A stretch of 64,000 nucleotides of DNA, taken from assembly GCA_002839315.1 (NCBI GenBank), contig PGXV01000010.1, positions 1 through 64,000 of the forward strand. The letters are read 5' to 3'. The DNA is from Spirochaetae bacterium HGW-Spirochaetae-3. Lineage in GTDB: Bacteria > Spirochaetota > Spirochaetia > Treponematales > UBA12059. A program made the position numbers and the translations under genes. The notes under the pieces are model-generated. The model worked only from the letters and a program-made list of their open reading frames with translations, did not search any database and was not told the origin of the DNA. Positions 24,328-26,842 of the stretch are shown here, piece by piece (the first letter of the stretch is position 1; every line of letters starts with the position of its first letter).

Positions 24328-26064
24328 CTATAGCTCCAAAGCGCGGGCCGCTACCAGAGCGTCGACCATGTCGACGAACTCGCCTACCTTCATAGCCGGC
24401 AACTGGCGCCCGTCGCGCACTCGTACCGCCACGGTCCCCTCTTCCCTCTCCTTGGCTCCGACGACGAGCATGTACGGGATCTTCTGGCCCTGCGCGTCGC
24501 GTATCTTGGCGTTCATGCGCTCGTCCGAGAGCATAGCATTGGCCCTGATACCGGCCTTCTTCAGGTCGGCGGCTACCCGGGTAGCGTAGTCGGCGAAGTC
24601 GGCGCCGACGGGGATGACCGCCGCCTGCTCGGGCGCCAGCCATATCGGGAAGGCGCCGGCGGTATGCTCGAGGTACACGCCGAAGAAACGCTCAATCGAT
24701 CCCAGGAGGGCGCGGTGCACCATGTACGGGCGCTTCTTCTGACCGTCCGAGTCGATGTAGGTCATGTCGAATCGCTCGGGAAGGTTGAAGTCGAACTGTA
24801 TGGTGGTCAACTGCCATTCCCGCCCGAGGGCGTCCTTGACCTTGAGATCGATCTTGGGGCCGTAGAACGCTCCGCCGCCCTCGTCCATCTCGTAGGCGAG
24901 GCCTTCCTTGTCGACGGCCTTGCGCAGAGACTCCAGCGCCGTGTCCCACATCGCGGGCTCGCCGACGGCACCGTCTCCCGCGGGCCTGGTAGCGAGGTAC
25001 GCCTTGATCTCCTTGAAGCCCAGGGTCTTGTGCATGAACAGCGAGAACCGGAGCACCTCGGCGATCTCGTCCTCGATCTGCTCGGGGGTGCATATGATAT
25101 GGGCGTCGTCCTGGGTAAAGCCGCGGACGCGCATCAGGCCGTGCAGGGTACCCGAGCGCTCGTAGCGATACACGGTACCGAGCTCGGCCCAGCGCATCGG
25201 CAGCTCGCGGTACGAGTGCACGCCGTTCTTGTATATCATGATGTGGAACGGGCAGTTCATCGGCTTGATGTAGTAATCGTCCTCGTCTATCTCCATCGGA
25301 GAGTACATGCCCTCCTTGTAGAAGCCGAGGTGCCCGGAGGTCTGCCACAGCCAGCTCTTGCCGATATGCGGGGTGAACAGTATCTCGTAGCCGTTCTTGT
25401 AGTGCTCGTCGCGCCACCAATTCTCCAGCTCGACGCGGAAGCGGCCGCCCTTAGGGTGCCAGTAGACGAGCCCCGGGCCCGCCTCCTCGTGGGTGCTGAA
25501 CAGGTCAAGCTCCTTGCCTAGCTTGCGGTTGTCGCGCTTCTCCGCCTCCTCGAGCATCTTGAGATGCGCCTCGAGCTCGGCCTTGCTTATGAAGGCGTAC
25601 GCGTAGATGCGGGTGAGCATCGGACGCTTCTCGTCGCCGCGCCAGTACGCGCCGGCTATCGACTTAAGCTTGAAGGCGTCGGGTCGCAGATCGCGGGTAG
25701 AGTCGACGTGGGGACCTCGGCACAGGTCCCTGAAGGTACCTTGCTCGTAGACGGTGATGGCGCCGTCGTCCAGGCCTTCTATCAGCTCCAGCTTGAACGG
25801 CTCCTCGGCGAACATGGCCCGGGCCTCCGCCTTGCTGACCTCCACGCGCTTGAACGGCACGTTCGCGGAGATGATACGCCGCATCTCCTTCTCGATCGCC
25901 GGCAAGTCGCTAGGCTGGATAGGAGCGGGCAACTGGAAGTCGTAGTAGAAGCCGTCGTTTATTGCGGGGCCTATCGCGACCTTGGTGCCGGGATACAGCT
26001 TGATTACGGCCTCGGCCATGACGTGTGACAGGGAATGGCGAACGGTTTCGACGGGGTGACTCAT
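24328..26064 (-). CDS. thrS: Threonyl-tRNA synthetase lacking the TGS domain
   Basis: A 578-residue enzyme that charges tRNA-Thr. It starts directly in the editing domain, with HSLSH (10-14, the HxxxH pair) and CRGPHV near residue 112. The class II catalytic core follows, with the zinc ligand Cys in MNCPFHI near 270, motif 2 (YRYERSGTLHGLMRVRGF) and motif 3 (LAPEQAAVIPV), then the anticodon-binding domain. The usual N-terminal TGS domain of ~60 residues is absent. The start at 26064 has GAGGAG upstream and no extended frame encodes a TGS. A T-box leader precedes it, giving control by uncharged tRNA-Thr. Confidence 0.96.
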   Translation of the reverse strand: MSHPVETVRHSLSHVMAEAVIKLYPGTKVAIGPAINDGFYYDFQLPAPIQPSDLPAIEKEMRRIISANVPFKRVEVSKAEARAMFAEEPFKLELIEGLDDGAITVYEQGTFRDLCRGPHVDSTRDLRPDAFKLKSIAGAYWRGDEKRPMLTRIYAYAFISKAELEAHLKMLEEAEKRDNRKLGKELDLFSTHEEAGPGLVYWHPKGGRFRVELENWWRDEHYKNGYEILFTPHIGKSWLWQTSGHLGFYKEGMYSPMEIDEDDYYIKPMNCPFHIMIYKNGVHSYRELPMRWAELGTVYRYERSGTLHGLMRVRGFTQDDAHIICTPEQIEDEIAEVLRFSLFMHKTLGFKEIKAYLATRPAGDGAVGEPAMWDTALESLRKAVDKEGLAYEMDEGGGAFYGPKIDLKVKDALGREWQLTTIQFDFNLPERFDMTYIDSDGQKKRPYMVHRALLGSIERFFGVYLEHTAGAFPIWLAPEQAAVIPVGADFADYATRVAADLKKAGIRANAMLSDERMNAKIRDAQGQKIPYMLVVGAKEREEGTVAVRVRDGRQLPAMKVGEFVDMVDALVAARALEL

Positions 26065-26221
26065 ACGGTACTCCTCGGACGGGAGAACCCCGAGCGGGAC
26101 GCGTCCGCACGCTTCCCGCCAGGGACTAATCCCGGCGTTCTAAGCGTAAGGACGAACCCGCATAGACCCGATCGATCGCCACGCGGCCGAACAGGCTGCC
26201 CGAACGCGACGACGTCGCCCC

Positions 26222-26460
26222 TAGGCTCGCGGAATCCGCGGTACCACCTTACTTCGGGGAGGCGAGCGTCACCGCCGCCAATCCCCGCGCTCTTACCGCT
26301 ATAACGGGCGCGCCCGGCTCCTATTACCGACCGCACCACGGCGGCGTTCACGGGAGCGGCTCCGGAGCGGTTTTCGTCGGTATCGCGTCGGGCGCCTTCC
26401 AGCCAAGGGCGCCCTCTCTGTCGGCGCGATCATCCGCCTACTCTTCTCCATCAAAGCCTG
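26222..26460 (-). promoter_or_regulatory. T-box leader (tRNA-Thr sensing riboswitch) of thrS
   Basis: Reading the minus strand: GATGGAGAAGAGTAGGCGG (26452-26434) matches the conserved Stem I start. CAGAGAGGGCGCCC then GGCTGGAAGGCGCCC (26420-26390) form the distal Stem I arm. The specifier ACC (26381-26379, a Thr codon) is followed by GACGAAAACC, whose AAAACC can pair with the upstream GGCTTT. CTCCGGAG and a GTGAAC motif come next, then the diagnostic antiterminator TGGTACCGCGG (26246-26236) with its partner CCGC. About 155 bases separate it from the start codon and there is no U-tract, so control may be translational. I did not fold the RNA computationally. Confidence 0.88.
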
Positions 26461-26527
26461 TACCGACGAATATGCCGCCGAGAGCGGCCGTTCGTCAAGC
26501 GGGACACGCAATCCCCCCTACCAAGCC

Positions 26528-26832
26528 AAGCGGCGAGCGCGTAGCGCGAGTCCGCTTGAACCCGGTACAGCCGCTCCTATCAGGCTCAAGCGACTCGTAG
26601 CGCAGCTACGAGTACGCTACTCCAACCAGCCAAGCGACAAGCGGCGTAGCCGCGAGTACGCTTCCCCTAACAAGCCTTCTATCGAGCCCAAGCGACGAGC
26701 GGCGTAGCCGCGAGTACGCTTCCCCTACCGGCCACGCCTACCAGCCCAAGCGACTCGTAGCGCAGCTACGAGTACGCTCCCCCCCGCAAAGCGCCCGGAG
26801 TTAAGCGGCGAGCGCGCAGCGCGAGTCCGCTT
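26528..26832. repeat. Cluster of six REP-like palindromic repeats
   Basis: Six hairpin units of about 30 bases lie at 26528-26557, 26588-26618, 26632-26663, 26690-26721, 26748-26778 and 26803-26832. All share an AAGCG start and a CGCT(T) end. The inner stem varies: GCGC-GTA-GCGC, CTCGTAGC-GCA-GCTACGAG (twice), GCGGC-GTA-GCCGC (twice) and GCGC-GCA-GCGC. The outer units end CCGCTTGAACCCGG. The related cluster at 36356-36487 shows this is a dispersed family. There is no coding potential. Confidence 0.85.
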
Positions 26833-26842
26833 GAACCCGGGC

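Follow-up and report, generated by a model that had tools for sequence, protein, structure and literature searches.

A threonine T-box leader on thrS in a spirochaete, with a proposed pairing between T-box bulge and Shine-Dalgarno site

The thrS gene of Spirochaetae bacterium HGW-Spirochaetae-3 follows a T-box leader with a threonine specifier. Both lie on the minus strand of the window, by which we mean the whole 64,000-nucleotide stretch of DNA that was analysed. Almost certainly the leader is a canonical T-box with a long Stem I, tuned to the charging of tRNA-Thr(GGU) and in control of thrS, and its response to uncharged tRNA-Thr would be that of the T-box family in general. A threonine T-box on thrS is, with good confidence, the best explanation overall, and control of translation is somewhat favoured for the window's lineage. 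The specific form of translational control that we put forward, a pairing of the T-box bulge with the Shine-Dalgarno (SD) site, is a tentative one.

The thrS leader and its parts

The gene (24328-26064, minus strand) encodes a threonyl-tRNA synthetase (ThrRS) of 578 aa that matches NCBIfam model TIGR00418 at 709 bits. Its product has the Pfam domains tRNA_SAD, tRNA-synt_2b and HGTP_anticodon, without an N-terminal TGS domain. Among named relatives, the closest are uncultured Spirochaetes MAGs, with 91-94% identity, which bears out the description of the host as a probable spirochaete in an earlier note on this DNA.

A search with cmscan found Rfam model RF00230 at 26463-26219 on the minus strand, scoring 80 bits with an E-value of 1.2e-17 and spanning model positions 1-219, its full length. 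An Rfam scan of the window at the gathering threshold gave no RF00230 match, because 80 bits is under the gathering score of 93 for that model; the T-box of a congener scores 96.2. No second RF00230 match turned up in the genome (3.88 Mb, 18 contigs), even at E<=10. The AGAGTA segment, AGAGAG arm, in-register ACC and antiterminator bulge that the earlier note had read on the minus strand are all present. That observation was right, and the identification as a thrS T-box is secure. The parts of the leader, from its promoter-like site onward, are as follows.

26469-26498, minus strand: sigma-70-like promoter TTGACG-18-CATATT directly before Stem I, 9/12 matches
26146-26463, minus strand: T-box leader, from Stem I to the true antiterminator 3' strand, defined by RF00230 plus a 3' extension from relatives
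26364-26449, minus strand: Stem I, with lower helix GGAG 26449-26446 / CTCC 26367-26364
26444-26439, minus strand: AGAGTA segment of Stem I
26419-26414 and 26404-26396, minus strand: elbow-binding distal arm of Stem I, AGAGAG with GGCTGGAAG
26369-26371, minus strand: specifier ACC (Thr) inside GAAAACCG, matching the anticodon GGT of the genome's tRNA-Thr
26302-26308, minus strand: CCCGTTA, Stem IIA/B element, from the Rfam alignment
26247-26252, minus strand: antiterminator 5' strand GTAAGG, pairing with 26151-26146
26240-26246, minus strand: T-box bulge UGGUACC (N = U)
26161-26234, minus strand: insert of about 80 nt atop the antiterminator, containing small hairpins seen repeatedly within the genus
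26146-26151, minus strand: antiterminator 3' strand CCTTAC, from alignment with relatives' leaders

In other T-boxes, the distal arm of Stem I makes the contact with the tRNA elbow. The specifier is in the standard register within GAAAACCG, one base ahead of the CTCC of the lower helix, and the UGGN bulge is set in the antiterminator as UGGUACC between GTAAGG and CCTTAC. Rfam closes the antiterminator at a CCT near 26222, where the leader had earlier been taken to end. Alignment with relatives' leaders instead puts the 3' strand at 26151-26146, within TTCGTCCTTAC (26156-26146) and beyond the insert. Because of this placement, the true antiterminator is 82 nt from the thrS start codon, a correction to the figure of about 155 bases given in the earlier note. 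The expression platform extends to the thrS ATG at 26064.

The position of the promoter-like site fits, but such a match is no more frequent than chance predicts, 0.8 being expected in the region. The general minimum free energy (MFE) fold of this GC-rich leader is weakly better than shuffled sequences (z -1.87) and is no evidence by itself. Farther upstream than the promoter-like site, in the interval that separates thrS from the divergent clpS-clpA, a cluster of REP-like GC-rich palindromic repeats occupies 26528-26840; a 40-nt unit with palindromes resembling ACTCGTAGCGCAGCTACGAGT is present four times and a 38-nt unit twice.

Distribution in the class and origin of thrS

A 2013 survey recorded T-boxes in Firmicutes, Actinobacteria, Chloroflexi, Deinococcus-Thermus and a few other groups (PMC3766115). 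A 2008 survey found none among six spirochaetes (PMC2494555), and Spirochaetota are unnamed in the text of the TBDB article (PMC7778990). RF00230 matches were obtained in 19 of the 23 genomes of the window's family, 77 of 291 in its order and 72 of 392 in a sample of the phylum, all but one of the last within the window's class. The number per genome is nearly always one. The T-box stands directly ahead of thrS at 59 of 68 loci in a first batch, and in 17 of 18 and 34 of 40 stretches in later batches. The set used for comparison comprises 109 thrS leaders, and the specifier is ACC in every thrS leader whose specifier loop was inspected. Because numerous families of the class have T-boxes, in most cases on thrS, the distribution of T-boxes is wider than usually stated, one of two alternatives raised earlier. 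A known kind of switch, absent for this phylum from the 2008 and 2013 survey records, is common to many families of the class.

On genes other than thrS, the T-boxes of the class have specifiers that fit the gene: GAC for aspS, and UAC for a tyrosine-phenol-lyase-like gene and for sodium symporters. The aspS example, L118 (genome G055), has its T-box at 1501-1751, some 33 nt ahead of the start codon. UAC (Tyr) T-boxes with U-tract terminators precede sodium/solute symporters in L112, L123, L125 and L126 (L123 being the one tested), and L127 has a UAC (Tyr) T-box before a tryptophanase/tyrosine-phenol-lyase-like gene; these five loci belong to other families of the class. In family f5, L122 and L376 show a T-box with U-tract terminator before trpB (L122 tested). 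Genome G280 contains two T-box leaders, L365 and L366, each before a thrS-like gene, and possibly has two ThrRS copies under separate T-boxes.

The other alternative raised earlier was that the leader came in with thrS by transfer, with a grouping of ThrRS among Firmicutes as its sign. Transfer is plausible; grouping with the main Bacillota ThrRS is rejected. ThrRS of the window's class is of the TGS-less type, also found in Chloroflexota at L055, L058, L077, L236 and L239, where a T-box motif precedes the gene by some 80-260 nt. In a 40-row mixture-model ThrRS tree, the class plus f38 grouped with L055, a Thermoflexia MAG, at 96, with Anaerolineae next at 86. Grouping the class with the main Bacillota clade in this tree cost 66.6 log units (p-AU 0.0002), which rejects a main-Bacillota source, and forcing all Spirochaetota ThrRS together cost 30.5 log units (p-AU 0.024). 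A FastTree phylogeny placed Spirochaetia inside a Chloroflexota grade; an 86-row mixture-model tree left the branching around Chloroflexota and other spirochaete classes unresolved. The nearest T-box-bearing outside relatives of the class ThrRS are Chloroflexota. It is likely that thrS and its leader were transferred with Chloroflexota involved, in either direction, and unlikely that the class thrS is a plain vertical Spirochaetota copy. Within the class, the leader was inherited after such a transfer and lost several times, with losses in families f6 and f7, in termite-gut Treponema and in the genus of L025 and L026.

Two class members, L145 and L080, have a T-box thrS in a quite different ThrRS clade, near Bacillota/Campbellbacteria, and represent a second, separate acquisition. 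The record L054, named Borreliella garinii, is a 3.4-Mb cave MAG whose ThrRS falls in Spirochaetia, loosely near Borrelia-like rows, and the name looks wrong.

Class I thrS T-boxes of Bacillota (RF00230) share with the window the long Stem I, ACC, UGGN bulge, antiterminator and thrS target. Unlike the window's leader, the Bacillota leaders examined have N = A (one G) and mostly U-tract terminators, and their ThrRS belongs to another clade and contains TGS (mostly, as judged by open frame length upstream). Chloroflexota thrS T-boxes (e.g. L055, L058, L236, L239) resemble the window in having a T-box before thrS for a TGS-less ThrRS, but differ in N = A and in a U-tract in nearly all.

Terminator-like hairpins and the Shine-Dalgarno site

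Three further features lie at the downstream end of the leader.

26094-26161, minus strand: competing OFF hairpin GCGGG..CGTCC.../GGACG..CCCGC, without U-tract, homologous to relatives' terminator
26071-26076, minus strand: Shine-Dalgarno GAGGAG
26067-26071, minus strand: SD-flanking GUACC, complementary to the bulge's GGUAC at 26245-26241

The CGUCC of the antiterminator 3' strand is able to pair instead with GGACG at 26106-26102. Antiterminator and OFF hairpin have CGUCC in common, and a mutually exclusive OFF structure is present. Across 13 leaders of the family the GGACG partner hardly varies, even though it is not part of the antiterminator; for a covariation count of the hairpin, the MAFFT alignment was too gappy beyond the core. 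A separate hairpin of GGACG with a CGUCC beside the SD was dropped, as it fits only some genus members. The tail after the OFF hairpin, CGGGGTTCT, has 3 U in 9 and is no U-tract intrinsic terminator, as had been noted earlier; ordinary U-tract terminators are present elsewhere in the window's genome. In family f13 and part of f4, the antiterminator 3' strand forms part of textbook terminators that have a tail of 5-8 U in 9 and complementarity z mostly -4 to -7. From their sequences, these close relatives would regulate by transcription termination. The window's family has kept the OFF hairpin, with the U-tract gone in most members and retained in L013, L015 and L019. In f5, thrS mostly begins 29-84 nt after the start of the antiterminator 3' strand, and there is no sign of a terminator. 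Insertions on the antiterminator are common in translational T-boxes (PMC7583486), and some relatives with terminators also carry them.

GUACC occurs at the SD in 19/19 leaders of the window's family, as GGAGUACC or GGAGCGUACC, and GGUAC occurs there in most f5 leaders; either word can base-pair with the bulge, whose GGUACC is a palindrome. As background, either word lies within 14 nt of the start in 3 of 186 SD regions in the window genome; the counts for two f5 genomes are 0 of 58 and 1 of 24. The clpS and clpA starts of the same family show no comparable GUACC conservation. Where the exact SD element occurs, it agrees with the leader's own N in 44 of 44 cases and disagrees in none: 42 of these have N = U, and the two with N = A carry GGUUCC (L359) or GGUUC (L364). 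A leader with N = C carries UGCC (L035/L356), fitting but short. Actinobacterial translational ileS T-boxes share with the window the UGGUACC bulge, the lack of a U-tract, antiterminator insertions and, as proposed for the window, SD control, but differ in Ile specificity and in having no GUACC or GGUAC at the SD in 9 of 9 leaders examined. Its absence from these nine means that translational T-boxes do not carry the element as a rule.

When the 3' domain is folded, the bulge-SD helix appears in the MFE structure of roughly half the family leaders and of 7 of 12 f5 leaders. For the window itself, the MFE structure pairs the SD in a local hairpin, and the bulge-SD fold is 0.9 kcal/mol less stable. 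Expected bulge-SD pairs number 3.56 in f1 vs 1.27 with a shuffled SD flank, and 3.47 vs 0.84 in f5, in a noisy control where 3 of 19 f1 leaders exceed all of their own shuffles. The value is 0.09 in f4, a family with terminators.

In 26 genomes with the element the tRNA-Thr(GGU) was read, and its discriminator is U in all 26, with A at position 32. N = U of the window T-box is opposed to this U, a U.U mismatch in place of the usual N-discriminator pair. Since such pairing holds in 'a majority of the cases' and has exceptions (PMC7778990), the mismatch is a departure and not an exclusion. Tracking of the tRNA discriminator base by N is ruled out, because N is U, A or G and the discriminator is U throughout.

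Proposed mode of control

Translational control in some form is somewhat favoured for the window's lineage. The earlier note had raised this mode as a possibility, and the complementarity of bulge and SD now gives it better support. That the pairing of these two is the specific form of control is suggested by sequence, and we hold it as rather less than an even prospect. What is observed is the sequences, how well they are conserved and how they match the variable base of the bulge; on this basis, the switch would work as follows. Uncharged tRNA-Thr would pair with ACC and, via its 3' end, with the T-box bulge; once bound, it would stabilise the antiterminator and turn thrS on. When tRNA-Thr is charged, the bulge GGUAC would pair with GUACC at the SD site, and the GGACG..CGUCC hairpin would hold the antiterminator 3' strand. 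Uncharged tRNA, by taking the bulge, would free the ribosome-binding site. More generally, and a shade more tentatively, the bulge may act as an anti-Shine-Dalgarno in several spirochaete lineages, where the tRNA 3' end and the ribosome-binding site would compete directly for UGGNACC, with N matched to the SD flank and the N-discriminator pair abandoned. The U.U mismatch would make sense if the SD flank is what constrains N.

The bulge-SD platform is offered as a proposal because the association of a missing U-tract with the SD element (Fisher p 7e-11, shared descent not counted) is not significant over independent pairs on the ThrRS tree, where informative pairs are too few; because some leaders carry both U-tract and SD element and some neither; and because independent N = A cases with GGUUC(C) number two only. 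A competing account, possible if doubtful, treats the hairpin at 26161-26094 as a weak or factor-assisted terminator, with GUACC a by-product or in another role. Homologous hairpins do end in U-tracts in f13, part of f4, L013, L015 and L019. Moreover, a long Stem I with an elbow-binding arm is typical of transcriptional T-boxes, most translational ones having a shortened Stem I (PMC7583486). The window's tail of 3 U in 9, in a genome with ordinary U-tract terminators, speaks against it.

The local SD hairpin of the window's RNAfold structure, in which an upstream CUCC pairs with GGAG of the SD, could also control translation if coupled to the OFF hairpin, leaving the bulge without a part. Its CC/GG columns are kept in 12 of 13 leaders, but the pairing is broken or shortened in genus members L003, L009 and L011, and GUACC conservation is left unexplained, so this arrangement is unlikely. 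Least probable, and very unlikely, is a decayed T-box, kept by descent with regulation lost. A score under the Rfam cut-off, the vanished U-tract and an N unpaired with the discriminator would suit decay, yet a diverse family has conserved the specifier, the bulge, the antiterminator strands and the OFF partner alike, and loss elsewhere (other genera, L025, L026) takes the form of outright absence.

A thrS T-box across many families of a diderm class, beside a Chloroflexota-like ThrRS, provides a concrete case for how T-boxes spread. The window's lineage possibly has a new expression platform. If the proposed pairing of bulge and SD is true, it would be a simpler route by which a tRNA switches translation directly, and relatives with terminators, with both elements or with neither would allow the change from transcriptional to translational control to be traced.
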